A stretch of DNA of 64,000 nt from contig OY987226.1 in assembly GCA_963920705.1 (NCBI GenBank), positions 746,501-810,500 of the forward strand. Direction: 5' to 3'. A model generated the notes under the pieces. That model saw nothing but the letters and a program-made list of their open reading frames with translations, had not been told where the DNA came from and searched no databases. This document shows, piece by piece, positions 1,355 through 51,744 of this stretch. The translations under genes were made by a program, and so were the position numbers. The stretch's first letter is position 1. Every line of letters begins with the position of its first letter. Source of the DNA: Odiellus spinosus (taxonomy: Eukaryota > Arthropoda > Arachnida > Opiliones > Phalangiidae).

Positions 1355-13911
<12,557 letters not shown>

Positions 13912-19882: not shown

Positions 19883-22800
19883 TTATACATTTGTCATATT
19901 TGTGTTTGATATGGCTAAGCCGCTTTTACCTAATCCGAATTGCAATCTATTCGGTTCACGAGTCCTCGAATCGCTAGTCGAACCGATTCCATTTTGTTCG
20001 GAACTCGATCGGAATAGCTTTCTCCTCACTCTGTCAAATTTGGTGAATGAGAAAAATACGAATGCACCTTGAAGCCCGTTTAAAACGATAAATATACACC
20101 AGATAACTCCGCTTTGGGAATAAGGCGCCACGAACCCGAAGATCCAAGTCAGACCCATGATCAAGCCTAACTTAGCGTATAACGATAATCTTATCCGATC
20201 TTTAACGCCGGTGTTTTCGTGAGCGATTTTCGTCGCTTTCGAAGCTCGGTAGATAATTATCGCCGTTGATACGAAGAAAAACGTGTTAATTAATAGCAAG
20301 AGCGCCAGAGGAACGGCGAAATAAGTTATCAACGAGATCTTGTTGGATATCCAACAAACGTTTTCGCCGTAACCCGGATTCCATTTCGATAAGCGTGGCG
20401 AGAAAAAGTTCAACGTAATCGTTACTGAAACGACGCAAAGAGGCGTTAACCAAGCGTAACACGAATACTTGAAAAACAATCCGAATCTTTCGCTCGAAGT
20501 TTCCGATTTTGGGACGCCGGAATGGCGAAAGGTGTGCCAAATATCGTACGCTAGAATGTTACACCAGAAAAAAGACGCCAAGAACGAGAAATGGATGACG
20601 ACTCCAAACGCCGCGCAAACCCAACCCCATTCCTTTCGTTCCACGCCGACTAGAAACAGAAGTTGAGCGACGAATAAGCAAAGAGACAGGCAAGCGATGG
20701 CTTTCGGCGCCATTTTTTGGCCTTCGGGTACTACGAAGAACAGCGTTAGTTTTAGGGCCAGGCATATAATCGAGACGCTTAGGCACGCTGTTGTTAGAAC
20801 GCTTTGAACCAAGTTGAACTTCGCGACGTACGAGTTTTGACTCGTATCCGTACATATCATGACTGTCCCATTATCTTGAATCTGGAAAGAAAGTATCACG
20901 TACTCGTTAATGGGTCTACAACCAATGAGAGAATGACAATTCGTAGGAAGACAACTCGGTCTCGGACAATTGGGTGACTGCGACAAGTAGGTGAAAGACG
21001 ATTGGTTGACTAAGACAATTCGGTCTCAGACAACTGGGTGAACGCGACAATTCGATGTCAGACAATTGTTCTAGGGATTATCATTTGGTTGATAGTGTTT
21101 TACCTTGTACTTTCCTTTTTGAATAACTATATCCCGTCCACGAAGGAATATGGAGTCATTCTCTCTTTGTTCGTACGCTTCGGAAACGATAATCATGGGA
21201 CAAGAGTCTATGGGCGTAGGCGGATCTGAAGTTGGAATGTTCCCCGAAACATCAATGGTGTCAGTAGAGCGCTTGGAGATACAAATGCCGTCACTGTATT
21301 CGTAGTTTTCTCCGCAAACTACGTTCCTGCAGTCTTCCGTGAAAGGATCAAATACAGCACCTGCGAATAATTAAATAAACTTTTGAGCAAATATTCTGCA
21401 ATAAGCACGTTGTTTCTGAGAATCTAGGTTCTAAGCCCGTGGTTCCCGACCATTTGGTGAAGCCATTTCTTCCTCCCAGCCCCAAATAAACCATCTCCGC
21501 TTGGTTTATTCCGAGCAAATTTAATTAGCTGGCACCATTTTATATCACCGCGAACCACGGGTGAGGAACCACCGTACTATACTCTATACTTGACCTGGAG
21601 GACATCTAGTTGATGAACCAACTTTAGTCCCGCCTGACGAGAAGTCGATATCCAGAACCATTGAGAAGGACGGTAAGAAGTGTCTGGTTCCAGTAAGCTT
21701 GGGAGCGGTGTAGCCGTAGTCTCCTTGCGGAGTGTTGCGACGAGTTCCGGTTTCGCAATCGAGTTCGGTATTACTTTCTCCGTCGCAGAAGGCGCAAAAT
21801 TTATTTTTGAATGACTTTCGAAATCCAGTTGTGTTACCAAATACTGGCGCGTAAAAGCGATCGCATTTCTTCGCGTAGTGCTTTTCACGAAACGCCGATG
21901 AATTGTAAGAGGGAGAGTTGGAGTTGCACGATGAACCAATCGGATTGTCAACGCAATTGAAAACAAACTTTTCTAATTCTGGAATCTCTTTCGGAAATCT
22001 GATTGAGAGTCATCTTAATATATTAAGATACTGTCCATTGAAAACAAAAGGAAAACTTTAACTCACGCGAAATGAACCGGACACTTCGAAGACATTTTCG
22101 GCAAAGTGTTATTTTGAAATTTGCTTCCCTTAGGGGGACGGCACTGCAAAACTACTCTCCAGGCAACTAGAGCTTTTTGGTTGTTGCAAACTGCGCAAAA
22201 GATATTCTTGTAGGTTACGTTATTCTCCGTAGACGTCACCGGCACCATAGCGAGATAGTCGCGTTTGTACTCTTTGAAAGGGTAGAAGGTATTCGCGTCA
22301 TTTTCGCATTGCTCTTTAACATCCTTGACGACCCACGTTTTTGAACATTTCGAATAAACGTAGTGCCATTTTCCCGGCAATGATTCCACGCAAGAATACG
22401 TTATCTCGCTTTCTTCAGATCCCTCATCATCATCGTACTCGGAGGATTCCTCTTCTCGGAGGTATTCGGTGATAGGCGCGTCCCAACAGCAATCGCCATA
22501 GCGTGGGCAATCGGTAGCGCACGAGCAATAGTAAGGGGAGTGGTCTTCAAATGGCCCGCGAATTGCCTGCGAGATGGCAACGTGACACTTTAACTACTAT
22601 AGCCCTTGGAGTTTGGATCAAGAAGGATCAGATAAGGAGAGGAAAAGTGGGGCTGCGTTGAGTTAGAGAGAGAAGAGCCAACCTCCCACTCGGGTGGAAA
22701 GGGGGGATAGGAAATTCTCGAGGTAAACTGTTGTCACGTGGTCGCTATACTAGCTCGTCTCATAAAGGATTCGTTTTACCCACGTGACAACAATTTACCA

Positions 22801-38202: not shown

Positions 38203-38393
38203 CCCTTATTAAAAAAGGTTAGCCTTAAGAGGTCTTGGGGAAGTCTTTCGGGTGTCTTATGTAGTCTTAAGAGGTCTTGGGAGAAGTCTTCCATTATGTC
38301 AAGAAGTCTTGTGGTAGTCTTAAAGACTTCCCCAAGACTTTTGTAGTGTTCTTGATGACCTCTTCAGATCAGACTAACTTTTTTCAGTAAGGG
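38203..38393 (+). mobile_element. MITE-1 copy upstream of the transposase gene
   Basis: Left end CCCTTATTAAAAAAGGTTAG (diverged), right end CTAACTTTTTTCAGTAAGGG. Full-length body. GG lies on both sides, but adjacent G runs make the duplication ambiguous. It is 378 bp upstream of the P-like transposase frame; its ends do not resemble P-element ends. Confidence 0.87.
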
Positions 38394-38771
38394 GGAGTTC
38401 ACGCAAGTGTTCAAGAAATCCATCAAATTCAGTTTGAAATTGTGATTGATCATTGAATATCTTTGAAATTTAAATCATTTAGAGATTTGATACGGAGCTG
38501 GGTAACTATTGATATTTTGAACGAATATATTTGGAGATTAGATTCAAATGACCTGACTAAATAAACTAAGAAGAATTACCCATTCTGAAAACAGGTTTCC
38601 TGGTCCCATTGAAGAATTCCCAATGTAACTTCTATCTTTACTTGGTCCCATTAATTAAAATATATAATAATTTAAATATCATCATGGAAAAATACATTAG
38701 AATTAAAGAATCTATTATTTTTTTTTTTTTTTTGAAAACTCCCCAACATTTAAAATCGAACTGTCTTTCAG

Positions 38772-41700
38772 ATGGTAAAAATGGTGGCTACTAAGCACTG
38801 CTTATATCCAGGCTGTCACAATGATAGCCGAAAATATTTCAAAGACTGCATGAAAGGAGTTTTTTTCCTACCATTTCCAAAACCCAAAACAAATTTATCA
38901 GCTTGTATGCGGTGGCTCGAAGCGTGCGGCAAAAGTAATCCAGACAAAGTAAAAAGTCACTGGTACGTTTGTAACGTACACTTTGTCGGTAATAATGGCC
39001 CAACTCCGAGTCACCCGGATCCAATAGCGTGCTCTAACGCTTCAAAAAACAAGAATTCCTTCGTAGATCAAGTTATTGAACTGGGTTGGTCGTACGGGAG
39101 AGAAGTAGATTGTAAACTTTTTACAAAAACAAACGGAGGAAAACAGCTACTCCAATTAATTTGGCAAGATTCGGGTGAACTAAAAATCAAGGTTTTAAAC
39201 ACACTTAGTTTTCTGAGTCGCCAGCATTTTTTGTGGAAAACTTTGCCCTTTACCGCAAATACAGACACGGAGGTTATACTCGCCTTACAAAAGTTAAGCG
39301 TTTTTAAGATATGCGTAGGAAGTCCGGATCCTGTTCTAAAAGAAGTTTACGATTCATTACCACCCAGTCAACGCAAAAAAGGAGTAGAATGTTACGACAT
39401 TAGTGAGAGTTCGTGCATTCGTTCGGTTAAATGTAGCGCCGTCGTACCGTTAGGGTTATTTCGAAAACGATGCGTCCCGTGTACTAGTTTTAGGATGTTT
39501 TTACAAATAACTAAAAATAATAAACTGAAAAAAAATTCATCACGAATCAAGAAAAAAACACGCAAAAGGATTAAAACTAAGAAATTGAAAGAATTTTTTA
39601 GTCAAAGGGCTTTTGACGAAGCTTCGTTTAATGAAATATTCCAAGAACAGAAACGTCGTAATTCTCTCGCCAAAAATAAATACGGTTATAAGTGGCATCC
39701 TGATATTTTAGAATGGTGTCAATATCTGAAATCAAAATCTACTTCGAGCTACGAAGAGTTTCGAAAATTCGGCGTTATGCCATTGCCATCGTTAGAAACC
39801 TTATCGAAGCAGTCAAAAACATTCGCAAAACCCGGTTTTTCAACCGAACAATTTCAGGAACTAAAAAATCAAATGAATAAGTTAGTACCCGAAGCTCATC
39901 TGAAATACGTATCTCTCGTTTGGGATGAAGTTAAGATAAAAGAAAAAAAAGACTACAGTCTTAAAACTGAAGATATTATGGACATTTTCCCCAAATCAAA
40001 GAACTCTGATGTTTCGGGAAAAGTATCCGTAGCTACGCATATGTTTCAAATTATGGTTAGAGGTTTAACATCGGATTTTAAATTTTCTCTCGCATTTTTC
40101 CCATCAAAACGCCTAGATTCTTCTCAGATTATTGATATAATTTGGGTATGCGTAGAGAAACTCGAATTAATAGGAGCAAAAGTCATTGCATTTGTATGCG
40201 ACGGCGCTTCGGCAAACCGTGATTTTTTCCACGCGTGTTCTTCGATGGAATCCGTGAGTTTTCGCGTACTGAATAGATACGCTCGTGATGAGAAACGTTA
40301 CATATATTTGATATCAGACGTGCCGCATCTTATTAAAGCTACGCGTAACTGTTTTAGCAATAGCGGTTTCCACTCGAAAACGAAAAATTTATGGAAAAAC
40401 GGGAAAAATATTTCCTGGAACTATGTAATGAATCTTTATAAAGAGACGCGTAAAAACTCCCTCGAAATAGGCAATTGCTTAACATTTAGCCACGTCTTCC
40501 TTAATCCGTATTCCAAGATGAGTCTTAAATTAGCGGTTCAGGTTTTAAGTAATTCGGTCGCGACGGCTTTGGAATCTGAGAAAAATCCTGAACATTCAGA
40601 GACAGTGTTGTTCATTAGGATGTTCAATAAATTTTTTGATATAATGAACACCAAAAATTTAGACGAAGCTAAAGCGACTAAAAACCCAAACAACGCGGCA
40701 TTTACATCCGTGGATGATCCTAGATTCCAGGTACATGTAGTTCATATTTACCCTTACCGAAAAATATCTTTAAACAGGGTTGCCACAGGTCAGGGAAAAA
40801 GGAAAAAGTCAGGGAATTTTAATTTCAAGAAGCCAGGATTATTGAAAATATTTATTTTTAAGTAATATAAAAGATAAAAGCTTAAAAATTGGGTAATATT
40901 AGTGATCCGCTTCTGGTATTAGCTGAAAAGGTCAGGGAATACCTGCAAAAGTCAGGCAATTTGGATCTGAAAAAACTGTGGCAAAAATCACATGTTGTTA
41001 GGTTGCATTCTCCCTTTAATGAATTTTAGTGTTTTCTACCCCCAAGGATTTGGGGACCCTTTTACAGGGTGACCAAACTTCCAATCTTTTCGATACCTTC
41101 CCCTTATTTTGTTCAACTTCTGTTGACCACAACAATTAACAATTTTTTAGTGGCTTGAAGGAGAATTTCTCGATTATTTGAGAAATTGGGAAAGAGATGT
41201 CATAAATAGAGAAGGAAAATTTACGTCCGAAGAAACTGATAAGATGCTGTTGGGTATAGAAACGCGAGAGGGATTGTTTCGAAGTGGTAAGCGTATATTT
41301 TCGTAAATACTAGCTAAATGTCAACTAATCAACGCTTAAATTTCAGTTCATTCGGTGGTAGCGATTGTCAAATTTCTGTTAGAGAAAGGTGCTAGCTTTA
41401 TTTTAACAAAGAGACTAAATCAAGATATTTTGGAGCGCGAATTCAGTTTGCAGAGTGGAGCGACTGGTTCAAATACAAACCTAACGTTTGTTGAGTACAT
41501 GAACAAGATCAAAAATATTCAAGCAGTTCGTCCAATCGTTAAAAAATGTAAGTATAGTCGGATCTTAAGAGATATAATTATATTTCTCATCAGACAAAAT
41601 ATCTATAAAATCCTACAAATCGTATTTTGGCCTATAATACCTATATTTTTGACATGTTGGTTAAATTACTCCAAGAAAGTTCAAAAAACAATCTTAAATT

Positions 41701-42132
41701 AGATTATTCAAGAGACGCAACCTTTTGCGATAACCCTAGTCGCGGTAAAGTGTCTACTCCTTTTGTTAAGACGCATTCTCTAGATTTTACGTTAAGCCTA
41801 TTTTGAAACTTTTTATAGAAAAAGGTTTAAGGGGGCGAATTTTACGTGTTAAGTCTTGCCACAGGAGTAGTTTTGAGATCATTTTATTAAATATAATTCA
41901 AGATAACATATTTTAAGACGTTTGAAATGATCTGAAATGTTTCCCGGTCCTTTTAACTTACTACCTTGTCCAAAATTGACATTTCTATCGGTTTTTTAAA
42001 ATTATTGGTTATTGAAGAACTTTGGAGGCTTTCTTTTAAAGAAACCAATTCAATTCCGTTTTGGTTTCAGACCAAAGGATGCGGATGAAATCATACATTC
42101 GACGCAAGCGATGTTTAATAAAAGATAGCTAA
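38772..42132 (+). CDS. P-element/THAP9-type transposase, apparently intact
   Basis: Cut-and-paste transposase of the P superfamily. Exons: 38772-40730, 41151-41286, 41347-41547, 42071-42132; GT-AG junctions with matching phases, 785 residues with no internal stop. An N-terminal THAP zinc finger (about 1-95; CLYPGC ... W ... CNVHF, C2CH) binds DNA. A Lys-rich linker (KKKTRKRIKTKK) follows at about 258. The RNase H-like core shows candidate catalytic acids in LVWDEVKIK (about 385), SDVPHLIKATRN (about 515) and LNQDILEREF (about 725), plus FVCDGASANRDFF. A basic tail ends the protein. The true start may be the internal Met four codons in (MVATKH). Intron 1 carries a hAT-like fragment and a trace of a MITE-1 end. 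I could not find the element's own terminal repeats, so I cannot say whether the transposon is complete or a stationary, host-retained copy. Confidence 0.9.
40775..40985. mobile_element. hAT-like element inside the transposase intron
   Basis: Begins CAGGGTTGCCACAGGTCAGG and ends AAAACTGTGGCA, the family ends also seen at 54792-55257; the last CCCTG is lost. It lies within intron 1 of the P-like transposase. A partial MITE-1 end (CCCTTACCGAAAAAT, 40751-40765) is just upstream. Confidence 0.75.
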
Positions 42133-43130
42133 AAAAATCTAAAATTTACAATAGGTAGAGTAATCTATTCCAACTCAGGCTGGCTCGCGAAATACGCCAT
42201 GCTACTATGATTTGGTTGCTTAGAGTTTAGCTTTACGCGTGCAGCAACTCTTCGTATGTAATTTTCAATAAAGAAATGTTGAGTTTTTTCTAATTCTTCA
42301 TCCGATAATTGGTTTGGTTTGATCATAATATACTAGTTTATGGAACTTTATTGGTACACAACGTGGCTATTCTAAAACCAAAACTATTTTTACACGAGTT
42401 CAGGGGATAAAACTTGAAATTTTATAGGAATAATAGGTAATTTAAAGGCGAATTATAGAAAATAGGATTGAAAATTTAAAATTATAGGAAATATAGGATA
42501 AATAACAGCGCATTTATAGGAAAAAATAGGATATCTCTTAATACGCCGTTGATTTAACTTTTTTACCAGATTTCTTTAAAATCTTAATCTCTTCCTATTT
42601 TGACTCGATGCCTATGGTGGGAATTTTTTATTGAGAAATATTAAATTATACTTTTATTTGAAAATGAATAACCTGAAAACCAAAAGAAATAGGAAAATAT
42701 AGGGAAAAAACCTTCAATTATAGGAATTTATAGGAAAAACTAGGAAATATTAGAATGTGATACTATTCTACGCTATAAAAGTGAAATGTAAAATCAACTT
42801 GTATATATGGCACACCATTTTAATTCCTCTACACCAATGGTTTGATAAATTTTTAGGCTTAGATTTAAAATACAAAACTTTACTACGAAATGATTAGATC
42901 CGTATTTGGCTACAAACTCTACGTACGAAAATTATTTGATCTTTGAGAGAGAGTTTATTTTTCAATATTATTTATCAATATTTTTTTCTACTAATGAAAA
43001 CAGCGCAAAAATAACATTTAAATAATTTAAACTTGGAAAAAAATAGACGCCGCAATCTTTTTGACGTCCAGTAAAAAAAATTTTAACCATTCAAATGTCA
43101 ATATTTACGGAACTAGCCGCGCGAGACCAG
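42133..43130. other. Intergenic, between the transposase and PTDSS
   Basis: Contains the expected right end of the P-like transposon, not recognised. From about 42424 to 42760 there are dispersed TATAGGAAAA-type repeats like the array at 51843-52290. A TTTATT near 42954 is a candidate polyadenylation signal for the minus-strand synthase. Confidence 0.5.
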
Positions 43131-46100: not shown

Positions 46101-47827
46101 ACTTGGAATTGGGGTCCTCTTTTGGTTTTCTGTGGGTAAAGAATAGCAAACTTCTAATTGGGGCCTTCTGTTGGTTTTCTGTGGGTATATAATACAAATA
46201 AACTTGTAATTGGGGTCCTCTATTGGTTTTCTGTGGGTAAAAAATAGTAATATACTTTGAATTGGGGCCTTCTGTTTGTTTTGTGTGGGTATATAATAGC
46301 AATAAACTTCGAATTGGGGTCCTCTATTGGTTTTCTGTGGGTAAAGAATATAAAACTACCAATTGGGGCCTTCTGTTGGTTTTCTGTGGGCATATAATAG
46401 CAATAAACTTCGAACAGGGGTCCTCTTTTGGTTTTCTGTGGGTAAAGAATAGCAATTAACTTCAAATCGGGGCCTTCTTAGGGTATTTTATTGGGTAAAT
46501 AATTCCAATAACTTTCCTACAAAATTTCAATAGTAGTCCAGTTCAGGCCTCTATCAGTATTATAAAGGTTAATAATTCCAATAACCTTCCCATAGAAATA
46601 TAAATAGGATTTGGATTGGTGAAATGACCGCCTTGATTTCCAATACATATTCCATAAGCTTCCAATTGCATTCCTATTGGTTTCCAATGTTTTTTTCTTA
46701 AGTCAAGCGTCCTATAACAGCCAAAAAGTGCGGGCTAAAGTAGTAACTAACTAAACCATGCGAGTGTCTATTTTAGCACTCACTGTTTGGGCCATTAGAG
46801 GGCGCCAACTTTTGTTATCTTAATCATCTATCAAGATACGGTGTCTATCGTTAGTGGTCCTAGTCTCAAATTAGCAATAACAAAGTACGTACTTTATGCT
46901 TTCCCAATTGTAAGTTCTTATTTCCAATTTCTTGCAAATGTACATTCCGAAATATATTCCGAGGCCGTTGCAAAGAAGAACATCTAAGACCAAAGCGTCC
47001 CACCAGCATTCGATGAAGTTAGGTAGCAAGTGAGCGAAAGCCACCTCCGTTATTTCCCACATAGCCGATATGGTCCAACAGATGCCGTAATGTCGAACGA
47101 GCATGGCTTTCATCGCCCAACCGAAAAAATGACCGAAAGCGAAAACATCGATGTGACTCCATATTCGTTCCACAGTTATGTCCGAGCAATTAACGCCGTA
47201 TTCCTGTTCGGATAAACTATATTAAGTATCTTTGAAGCCGATTAACGAATGTAACTGTACCTTTTCATGGTCAATTTTAAAGTTTCTGAGATCAGGATCA
47301 AACCAGTAAACTATAGACTTGACTGTTTTGTAGTTTTGAAAGAGCAGAAAAAGCAAACCCAACAAATAGAGAACGCTTAACCCTAAATTAAAGACAAAAC
47401 AGTGGCGTAAATGGGATAATCATTAATATAAATACGGTATACGCACCAAATACGACTCGCCATAAGGCTGGGTGGGGTCTCGTAAATGGTCCATTTGGAA
47501 AGGCTAAAACACTGACAATGAGAAAGAAAACTACGACGCAACAAATACCACTCCATATGTTGTTCTCCAAGGAAATTTCATCGTTCCTAAATAAAGGAAG
47601 AACTGTACTTACTACGGGTCAAAATTATCTACGAAAAAATTGTCATACCTGGTGAATGCGAAATACAAAAGAGCTCCGATTGAAGCGGTTAATAACGTGA
47701 TTGTGTGTGGTTTATAGAAAAATTCTAAAGAAATGTCATCCACAGCTCGGTCATTTATCGTATTAAAATGATCAAAAGTATCTGACCCCACGCTAAACGT
47801 TCGGGGACGAAGGCTGTCATAGGGCAT
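43131..47827 (-). CDS. PTDSS1: Phosphatidylserine synthase (base-exchange type)
   Basis: ER-membrane enzyme exchanging the head group of an existing phospholipid for serine. Exons in transcript order: 47827-47649, 47586-47447, 47375-47261, 47203-46893, 45039-44992, 44927-44846, 44158-44042, 43655-43556, 43487-43428, 43280-43131. All are GT-AG and in phase: 433 residues (human PTDSS1 473, PTDSS2 487). Diagnostic stretches: [92 protein letters not shown]. Many hydrophobic segments, as expected for a multi-pass protein, then a Lys-rich C-terminal tail. I favour PTDSS1 over PTDSS2 on overall resemblance, with moderate certainty. Introns carry a mariner-type MITE, a fold-back element and a 0.9-kb minisatellite. 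Confidence 0.95.
44218..44744. mobile_element. Tc1/mariner-type MITE
   Basis: TACAGGATGGTTCGGATCA at left, mirrored by TGATCCGAACCACCCTGCA at right, with TA on both sides (44216-44217, 44745-44746). 527 bp without transposase sequence. It lies in a PTDSS intron between the exons at 44158 and 44846. Confidence 0.85.
45106..45248. mobile_element. Small fold-back element
   Basis: Long imperfect inverted arms: AGACAAGCAACCCGACTCAA ... GATCTCGC at left, mirrored at right to end GGTTGCGTGTCT. 143 bp with a loop of about 45 bp. Partial copies of one arm occur near 1237-1277 and 31468-31490 (TTGACAAGGCCC). PTDSS intron. Confidence 0.75.
45630..46500. repeat. Minisatellite, about 33-65 bp higher-order unit
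   Basis: Repeats of AATAAACTTCCAATTGGGG plus CCTTCTGTTGGTTTTCTG and TGGGTATATAATAGC, alternating with shorter units that omit the GTTGGTTTTCTG block. More than 15 copies with drift at both edges. It lies in the large PTDSS intron. Long repetitive reading frames here are not genes. Confidence 0.9.
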
Positions 47828-49271: not shown

Positions 49272-50015
49272 TTACAACATGGCATTCATGGAGCCGTAAG
49301 GAAACAACTTTAACTTAGAGTTTTGAAAATTATACTGATAACGTCTCGTATCGGCTTCCGTCTCCAAATCAACCTCAATATTACCTAAAACATCTCGGCT
49401 AAATCCCGTTGATAATCCTCCCACTTTAATCTTTACATTAGCTCGATGATACGCCGCTTTGAAGATTATTAAGTCCTCTTCATCAGCATCAGAAGCCAAT
49501 GTCGCTCTTATTAACAAACAATAATTGCCTCTATTCGTTAATTGGCAACAGTAATTGAGAAAATTAACCACCTCTTTATGACTATACCCTAAATGATCGA
49601 ACGTCGTTAGATTATCAATTACAATCAGAATGTTTTCACTCGAATCATTATTAAGAGATTCTGCGGCAGATTTAATTTTGAGGTACAATTCTTTTAAGGT
49701 ATTTTCTTTCCATGAAGTTTGGGTATGATCCGCAAATTGGTCGTAACATTCTTTAAGTAAATTAATGTTGAGAAGTTTTTGACTATCTAGTAAAAGCTTT
49801 AGATTTAAACCAAATTTCAAGCATATTTGGTGGTAATGGTTGAAACTGTGTAGGTTGTTAATCAACAAAACTTTGCCATTGGATTTAAGATATTTGGATA
49901 CGCAGTGGGTTAAAGCAAAACTGCCATCGCCTTCAAAGTCATCGGAGAGCAAAATTACATTTCTGCTGGGCAAATCGGATGTTAAGCCAAGAATGTTGTC
50001 AAGTTCTGGATACAT
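49272..50015 (-). CDS. ELP6: Elongator complex subunit ELP6
   Basis: A RecA-like ATPase-fold subunit of the Elp4-5-6 ring, which serves tRNA wobble-uridine modification. Single exon, 247 residues (human 266). Matches to the family recalled from memory: N-terminal MYPELDNILGL, DGSFALTHCVSKYLKSNGKV, FNHYHQICLKFGLNL, the ILIVIDNLTTFDHLG strand-loop, VGGLSTGFSRDVLGN and the C-terminal RRYQYNFQNSKLKLFPYGSM. It has no Walker A lysine motif, which is normal for Elp6. The start is set by the first Met aligned with the family start. Intronless, unlike its neighbours; that may be ancestral or a retrocopy, but no poly(A) or target duplication was seen. Confidence 0.93.
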   Translation of the reverse strand: MYPELDNILGLTSDLPSRNVILLSDDFEGDGSFALTHCVSKYLKSNGKVLLINNLHSFNHYHQICLKFGLNLKLLLDSQKLLNINLLKECYDQFADHTQTSWKENTLKELYLKIKSAAESLNNDSSENILIVIDNLTTFDHLGYSHKEVVNFLNYCCQLTNRGNYCLLIRATLASDADEEDLIIFKAAYHRANVKIKVGGLSTGFSRDVLGNIEVDLETEADTRRYQYNFQNSKLKLFPYGSMNAML

Positions 50016-51744
50016 TTTTAATAAAACTATTTTGTGGCAGTGCTCGGTGTTTGATAATTTGTAAGATTATGGTTTCGTGTAGAATACCTAAGAGATAAAA
50101 GAAAAGCAAATGTTTCAATATCCTGACCTCAAAACCGAATCTCTAATTTTTCCATACTTACTAAGTTACTATAGTACCATGATTTAATCGATGCTTTTGG
50201 CGTTTGTATCACACTTTTCAAAATTAATTCTGAACGTACAGTAAAATGTACCGTACAAACAAAAAGGTTTTAGGGCCAGAAACAGGCAAGAAGATGTTGC
50301 GGACGATTTTTCACAATTAGAGCGGAACACAGGGCAAGGTCATGAACCACAGAGAATAAAGGAAGAGGAATAGAAATTAGAAACTCGGGGTCAACTTTAG
50401 TTAAGATTAGGTCTATGTAGGCACGTATCTAAGCGCAATACCAAGAAACTTCCGGTTCTGATTGTACCAACTAACTGGAAACTCTAGTGTTCTAATCTTT
50501 TGGAGCAACATCGTTATTTACGTTTGTAGGGCGGGGGAGATGATACGCCTTTTCTTTATTCTCTCTGCATAAACCAAGTTTTTCTCCTCCTTTCCAAAAA
50601 ATGGCCCTTTATAATAGGGTTTATTTCTAGCCCTTTGTAGGCCTGAGTGTTGTCTTCTGCTAAACACCCACCCCCTATTCAGTTATCCAAATGACGAGAA
50701 CAGTACGTTTTTTAGCCGCAAACAAAGAATTAGTTTCCATTTTTTTTCTACAGCTTCGGTGGCTCTGTGCTTTCGACATTTTGTTTGTTTAAGAAGAAAA
50801 CCCAGGACGCGAAAAAGTAATCCCGTGTACTTTTATGTAAAATGTGCGCTGATTCTACAGTGGATATAACTCGAAAGTTAACGGTTTGTTGTGGATTTGT
50901 GGTGAATCAGCCGTACTGGGAAAATAAATCAACGAAGATATCAGCATTAAACGAAACGTAGAACTAATCAACTAACTAATCATCGAAACTTGTGCCAGGT
51001 GAAGAATTCGACGGTCAGGTAAAGAGATTTAATTATTTTACACCAAAAGTAGAAAGGGGATAAAGTTTGATTGCGTGATAATTATAGCTAATAGTAATCT
51101 GATCTAAATATAAATCAAGCTCTTAACGTAGTTCCTGACGTGTATTATCTAGTAAAAAGTAATAAATATCGTCATATTTATTACTAATGTCGTAATTATT
51201 ATTAACTGTTAACGACTTTATGACAAGCTAGCGTGGGGAACCTCAGAGCCATCACGCGAACCTGAGATTATTATAAGAATAAATTTAAAGGCTTGAAACG
51301 TGTCCGTCAATATTTAAATTTCTCAAGGACCTTTTCGAGTTAAATCGCTAATTCCGAAAACAAATGAAACTATCATTTTACTGGTTAATTGATACCTGCC
51401 CTTTAAAATGCTTCTTAGAATATTAACTCATTTGAATACTCTACGCGAGATACACATTCGGTAACGATGGTAACCGAAAATAAAAGTTTTAGGAAAGTTT
51501 TAATTTATTCGGTGAAAAATCAAACTTTAATGACTTGGGTGAATCTCGTTTAATCAGAAGAGTGGAAATAGATATAAACAAAGATATAGCGAGCTCGGAA
51601 TAACAAAATAATGCTATTTTGTACATCGTTATAATAAGCTTTGGTTTAGACAAATCTCGGTCAGTTGAGATCATTTTATTACGCGCTTGAGAGTTAATTC
51701 CACCTTAGTTAATCCGCGTTATTCGGAGTAAAATTGCTAGAGCC
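50016..51744. other. Region upstream of ELP6 and of the plus-strand receptor
   Basis: No coding sequence recognised. Two consecutive donor-like sites (CCAG|GTGAAG at about 50998 and TCAG|GTAAAG at about 51018) and an acceptor-like CACCTTAG near 51706 suggest a spliced 5'UTR for the receptor that starts at 51745. Otherwise AT-rich. Confidence 0.4.

Follow-up and report, generated by a model that had tools for sequence, protein, structure and literature searches.

Drosophila P-neogenes are immobile P-derived genes that were kept without transposon ends and in which the last part of the reading frame has been lost. Human THAP9 is described as a single-copy gene without ends whose product is still able to cut; this immobile but active P-type enzyme is not known to have a particular job (PMC8230255). 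THAP genes thought to be transposon-derived are reported from many animal phyla (PMC10027918). For the Drosophila P transposase, D230, D303 and E531 are given as the catalytic triad (PMC7776569), and a D444 mutant is described as having lost both excision and integration (PMC8230255). Among the mobile members, the zebrafish P element is reported to carry 13-bp repeats and 8-bp duplications (PMC10983969, PMC7776569), while those of Anopheles are described with duplications of 8 bp and, in most cases, three putative exons (PMC1562414).

The window studied here (the whole stretch of DNA that was analysed, 64,000 nucleotides, C2:746501-810500) contains four genes recognized mainly by their protein domains:

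2580-13911, + strand: Abl-like tyrosine kinase, with an F-actin binding tail (PF08919) and SH3/SH2 domains recognised by eye
19883-21025, - strand: secretin-family receptor (PF00002)
46871-47221, - strand: phosphatidylserine synthase (PF03034)
49272-50066, - strand: Elongator ELP6 (PF09807)

It also contains, at 38772..42132 on the + strand, a P transposase-like gene of 785 predicted amino acids whose four exons are joined in phase with GT-AG borders:

38772..40730, + strand: exon 1, an open frame of 653 codons without a stop, with Pfam and PDB sequence matches; THAP finger, basic linker region, N-terminal part of the RNase H domain (D385, D477) and GTP-binding insertion domain
40731..41150, + strand: intron 1, phase 0, GT-AG, at a position common to several paralog families (e.g., between DDERLK and WLE)
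40775..40984, + strand: MITE lying within intron 1, with CAGGGTTGCCACAG intact at its left end and a ruined right end
41151..41286, + strand: exon 2, homologous to exon 2 of the paralog families
41287..41346, + strand: intron 2, phase 1, position and phase common to several paralog families
41347..41547, + strand: exon 3, with the third catalytic residue E728 (NQDILE); motifs beyond E728 degenerate
41548..42070, + strand: predicted intron 3, without a paralog counterpart, containing a repeat fragment at about 41600-41708
42071..42132, + strand: predicted exon 4, with the frame end and stop, placed by the in-phase GT-AG join only; AATAAA at 42267

The introns lie after residues 653, 698 and 765, and intron 2 splits the codon after 698. 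Residue 652-653, the end of exon 1, is also the end point of many protein matches in the genome, and a tblastn search of the whole protein against 30 loci, including the window gene itself, found exons 2 and 3 downstream in paralog loci. Paralog borders were read for the end of exon 1 in 10 loci and for the later borders in 7, and whole frames in 13. Intron 1 is absent from family D (L032) and intron 2 from family C (L027, L031). In all 10 paralog loci followed to the end of exon 3 (L011, L012, L017, L024, L027, L031, L032, L035, L037 and L039) the frame stops at that point, preceded by a GGNT or GNT motif (GNV in L039); in L076 and L077 the sequence breaks off before this end motif. The GGNT/GNT tail is not present in the window gene, and no counterpart of intron 3 or exon 4 was found in the paralog loci read. 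The fourth exon is made plausible, though not proven, by a GTAAGT donor at 41548, a CAG acceptor before 42071 and an AATAAA at 42267. The three-exon model is firm and the fourth exon tentative. Of the intact four-exon frame with in-phase GT-AG introns proposed by the sequence-only reading, the open frame is confirmed and exons 2 and 3 have paralog support, which exon 4 does not share. Just past the gene, a 55-codon frame at 42165-42332 on the - strand has a protein-like look and gave no Pfam match.

The three introns had also been thought to invite comparison with the spliced Drosophila P gene. In the alignment with the P transposase sequence 6p5a, introns 1 and 2 of the window gene correspond to P residues near 465 and 505, and Drosophila P introns, taken here from general knowledge, lie at about residues 97, 319 and 561. 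Since these positions differ, the comparison is not supported and homology of the introns was rejected.

Pfam searches with the window protein recovered the THAP domain (PF05485, 4.9e-6, 27.6 bits against a cut-off of 23.9), TNP-like_RNaseH_N (PF21787, 1.3e-23) and TNP-like_GBD (PF21788, 9.5e-20). All four residues of the THAP finger, C10, C15, C67 and H70, are present, so that together with the Pfam score the complete zinc finger noted earlier is borne out. The only distinct PDB sequence matched by the protein in phmmer is the Drosophila P transposase 6p5a (1.6e-14), and a profile built from 8 exon-1 proteins of the same genome led to the same sequence (2.3e-37). In the profile alignment to 6p5a, D385 aligns with P transposase D230; in the phmmer alignment D477 corresponds to D303 and E728 to E531, which confirms the three acids proposed as catalytic. 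Two further acids are kept in the 6p5a alignments, D516 on D339 and D623 on D444. The protein thus holds an RNase H core with a D-D-E triad that is interrupted by a GTP-binding insertion domain, and these sequence comparisons (Pfam domains and the 6p5a match) confirm that it belongs to the P superfamily, as first proposed.

DNA copies were sought in the whole 443-Mb genome of 286 contigs, in a comparison that skipped very common words. Exon 1 and its 5' edge gave exactly one match genome-wide, namely itself, while intron 3 and the sequence beyond it up to 42398 gave 30 others, all of them to two short pieces of repeat, one at about 41600-41708 and the other at about 42360-42398. Apart from the short repeat piece in predicted intron 3, the sequence between the flanking repeats is single-copy. 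The search for other copies that had been proposed thus yielded no second DNA copy of exon 1; deletion derivatives with only short ends in common could escape detection because repeats crowd the flanks of the gene. At the protein level, exon 1 has at least 75 matches including itself (68 scored of 559 candidates). Among the matches listed, the best-scoring other one is 38 % identical, and none besides the gene itself exceeds 42 % identity over stretches of more than 100 residues. Within the same assembly, contig C286 is mitochondrial (invertebrate code, COX1 followed directly by COX2), and several COX1 pieces at C17:1.1-4.4 Mb are probably nuclear copies of mitochondrial DNA.

Several of the paralogs have intact frames. 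The earlier remark that intact P transposases outside flies are sparsely described is therefore overstated, given at least 75 matches in this genome, several of them intact, and the P elements of Anopheles and zebrafish described in print (PMC1562414, PMC10983969, PMC7776569). The nearest family, represented by L011 and used as a control, has one exact copy and decayed DNA relatives, the larger ones 65-74 % identical over up to 1676 bases. Family A (L012-L016, L019 and L020) comprises 7 loci that are 98-99.8 % identical over about 4.5-4.75 kb; these represent 5 distinct sites, since a common left flank shows L012, L014 and L016 to be duplicates of a single insertion. Its elements start with CATAGACAATAAACAGAAGG, and in 2 of the 3 loci fetched this sequence recurs exactly inverted at the opposite end, after about 6.2 kb, the stretch available for the third (L074) being too short to reach the end. 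Their target duplications are 7 bp long (ATAGAGC at L012/L072, GTACCTA at L013/L073). THAP domains were also seen in very long open frames at C17:8501202, C5:2083403 and C16:6741812 (924, 1089 and 929 codons).

No such ends were recognized around the window gene, where the family A ends reach at best 19 of 29 matching bases. We scanned 33.0-38.8 kb against 42.1-48.0 kb for 14-bp inverted repeats with at most 2 mismatches accompanied by 7-8-bp duplications with at most 1 mismatch. Three weak candidates were obtained, 33220/44978, 34243/45332 and 38469/43031. Shuffled sequence gave none in 12 of 15 trials and one in the other 3, so the real count exceeds all of them; as a fairer control, the scan was repeated at 25 overlapping positions in the real window, which yielded 0-4 candidates, with three or more at 2 positions. 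Neither a perfect target duplication nor a terminal repeat with at most 1 mismatch occurs in any of the three (33.0-48.0 kb). They were not accepted, as both duplications and repeats are imperfect and their number lies within the 0-4 range of the real window. Candidate 38469/43031 was in addition set aside since it starts within a known repeat. The one worth keeping in mind is 34243/45332, which begins with CATG, as Drosophila P does. The earlier statement that the ends of the element were not found accordingly holds for the 33.0-48.0 kb scanned, in which no credible pair of terminal repeat and target duplication appeared. Repeats lie close to the gene on both sides:

38203..38393, no strand assigned: 5' flanking repeat, many copies, mostly 90-95 % identity, outside the gene
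38424..38614, no strand assigned: second 5' flanking repeat, 73-84 % identical to other copies
42361..42736, no strand assigned: 3' flanking repeat, longer matches 74-85 % identical to other copies

The 5' repeats extend to about 38616, one match reaching 38663 (best 40 candidates scored), and the distance from the gene to the flanking repeats is no more than about 160 bp on the 5' side and about 230 bp on the 3' side. Because they crowd both sides, the old ends of the element may have been overwritten or hidden.

The MITE nested in intron 1 provides an estimate of age. Its family, which is probably hAT-like, is bounded by CAGGGTTGCCACAG..CTGTGGCAACCCTG and numbers at least some dozens of copies; at least 56 other matches were obtained (40 scored of 1766 candidates). 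In a pairwise alignment the divergence K of the window copy from the consensus is 0.107, compared with 0.008-0.077 for 29 other copies, which were the best-ranked of the 56 and hence chosen by likeness to the window copy. About half of its differences are concentrated in a single rearranged block together with the ruined right end; K is 0.090 without the block and 0.058 without the ruined end too. A value of 0.166 from a first alignment was discarded as misaligned. The expectation for a neutrally evolving frame was computed over the 2295 coding bases of exons 1-3 with 0.05-0.1 indels per substitution, a ratio adopted because the 0.38 gaps per substitution among the MITE copies themselves include subfamily differences; ratios of 0.2 and 0.38 give smaller probabilities of an intact frame. 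At K 0.06, 6.3 stops and 5-10 frameshifts are expected and an intact frame has a probability of about 1e-5 to 6e-8; at K 0.107 the expectation rises to 11.2 stops and 9-18 frameshifts, and the probability falls to about 1e-9 to 1e-13. By stops alone the probabilities are 2e-3 and 1e-5, respectively, and even K 0.03, a value given by no treatment, would leave 3e-3 to 2.5e-4. Exons 1-3 contain neither stops nor frameshifts. The diverged MITE in intron 1 therefore makes neutral survival of the frame improbable and, provided that it aged in place, speaks indirectly for the frame having been under selection ever since the MITE arrived; its age is a proxy, divergence before insertion being possible.

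Base composition also sets the gene apart. The CpG observed/expected ratio of exon 1 is 1.51, against 0.59-1.00 over the matched part of all 29 loci L011-L039, which amount to about a dozen independent families because many are near-identical copies; L076 has 0.81 over its whole stretch. The value is high, though not unique, as 2-kb pieces of the window span 0.58-1.8. Shuffles among synonymous codons gave z = +5.1 for the window gene, whereas nine transposon rows lay between -1.0 and -3.8; the values for five exons of host genes in the window were +3.4, +4.7, +1.7, +1.5 and -0.8. Near-invariant columns of the protein alignment are changed in 15 of 77 cases in the window gene and in 2-9 (of 56-76) in eleven of the 13 other rows, the remaining two, J and K, having 11 of 62 and 14 of 73. 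For strictly invariant columns the counts are 6 of 43 in the window gene, 5 of 42 in K and 0-3 of 35-40 in the others. The residues changed in the window gene include an arginine and an NP pair beyond the third catalytic acid. In the tree it is placed without resolution among the families and has the longest end branch (1.0 versus 0.06-0.52), which the rule of the tree program did not flag as long. CpG content and lost near-invariant residues separate the window gene from most transposon copies; the column changes and branch length may simply reflect an isolated lineage.

Rows J (C17:13624315-13626396, - strand, L075) and K (C17:13606948-13608696, + strand, L077) lie about 16 kb apart and have open P-transposase-like frames with exon CpG ratios of 1.95 and 1.50 and shuffle z of +7.3 and +3.6. 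With J as the only protein query, K scored best among the other places (44 %); shorter pieces at further sites went up to 53 %, and this search showed no copy nearly identical to J. The third exon of K breaks off soon after the catalytic glutamate. Judged by these features, J and K may form a second stationary P-derived pair.

We consider it most probable (about 0.65) that the window gene is a stationary single-copy host gene that descends from a P transposase and is maintained by selection, in the manner of THAP9. It is found in one copy in the 443-Mb DNA search and without ends in the 33.0-48.0 kb scan, as would be expected of a THAP9-like domestication. What an autonomous P element would show, i.e., terminal repeats with a 7-8-bp duplication and further or internally deleted copies, was seen neither in that scan nor in the genome search. 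An element of low copy number that is, or recently was, mobile and whose ends were missed is an unlikely alternative. The full domain set, the triad and the retention of D516 and D623 speak for it, as does the recent mobility of family A in the same genome, and the excess of end candidates over the shuffles strengthens it slightly at the expense of the stationary reading. However, no second or decayed copy of the gene exists among the matches listed, no credible ends lie within 33.0-48.0 kb, the sequence between the flanking repeats is single-copy, and a diverged MITE sits in intron 1; moreover, the arginine and NP pair after the catalytic glutamate are changed and the C-terminal GGNT motif is missing. 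Of the two possibilities originally left side by side, a live transposon or a stationary host gene, the single copy, the lack of credible ends, the diverged MITE and the CpG content favour the latter and disfavour the former.

A dead, unselected relic whose frame stayed open by chance appears somewhat less probable again. The 15 of 77 changed near-invariant residues, the long branch and the uncertain C-terminus would suit a relic, but the catalytic acids are kept and none of the 6-11 stops and 5-18 frameshifts expected in exons 1-3 at the age of the MITE is seen. The retained THAP finger and the altered region past the catalytic glutamate would fit a P-derived repressor or DNA-binding factor that has lost catalysis, as in the Drosophila P-neogenes and the 66-kDa repressor; this we regard as improbable, since such a repressor would not need the triad, which is intact.

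Under the preferred reading of a stationary host gene, a P-superfamily transposon would have inserted here long ago and then lost its mobility and recognisable ends, and selection would have kept its transposase gene in single copy by molecular domestication, as for vertebrate THAP9. On its sequence features, such a domestication is probable. Its product would be a nuclear protein that binds DNA via the THAP finger, with a GTP-binding RNase H core that possibly still cuts DNA. The changes past the third catalytic residue suggest that the tail has diverged from the consensus of the transposons and make complete transposition unlikely. Its likely roles would be to cut DNA as THAP9 does, or to bind the genome's own P families and restrain them, between which the sequence gives no choice. 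More tentatively, we suggest that a P transposase may have been domesticated independently in this arthropod, with its catalytic triad complete and alongside a P family that was active recently; the gene might then act on the ends of its mobile cousins, by cutting or restraining them, and the pair of lone frames on C17, with its similar CpG and residue signature, could be another such event. A literature search made without the species name returned no publication evidently on this gene.

Compared with the mobile P elements of the same genome, the window gene has the domain order and introns 1 and 2 of family A, while family A is multi-copy (98-99.8 %) and CpG-poor and has exact inverted ends, 7-bp duplications and the GGNT tail. 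With Drosophila P it has in common the equivalents of D230, D303, E531, D339 and D444 and the GTP-binding insertion domain, but neither 31-bp ends nor an 8-bp duplication were found in the scan. Its protein is predicted to end 57 residues past the third catalytic acid, whereas the Drosophila P transposase extends about 220 residues past it. Unlike the P-neogenes, it has kept the third catalytic region. The exon layout of THAP9 differs from the plan of one large first exon and small later exons seen here. The window gene resembles vertebrate THAP9 in being single-copy, in lacking recognizable terminal repeats and target duplications, and in combining an RNase H-like fold, an insertion domain and retained catalytic acids (PMC8230255, PMC7776569). 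A further THAP9-like case beside mobile P families would allow a direct test of whether such genes are kept in order to act on their mobile relatives, and a nested MITE together with CpG content can help to tell host genes and transposon copies apart when only one species is at hand.
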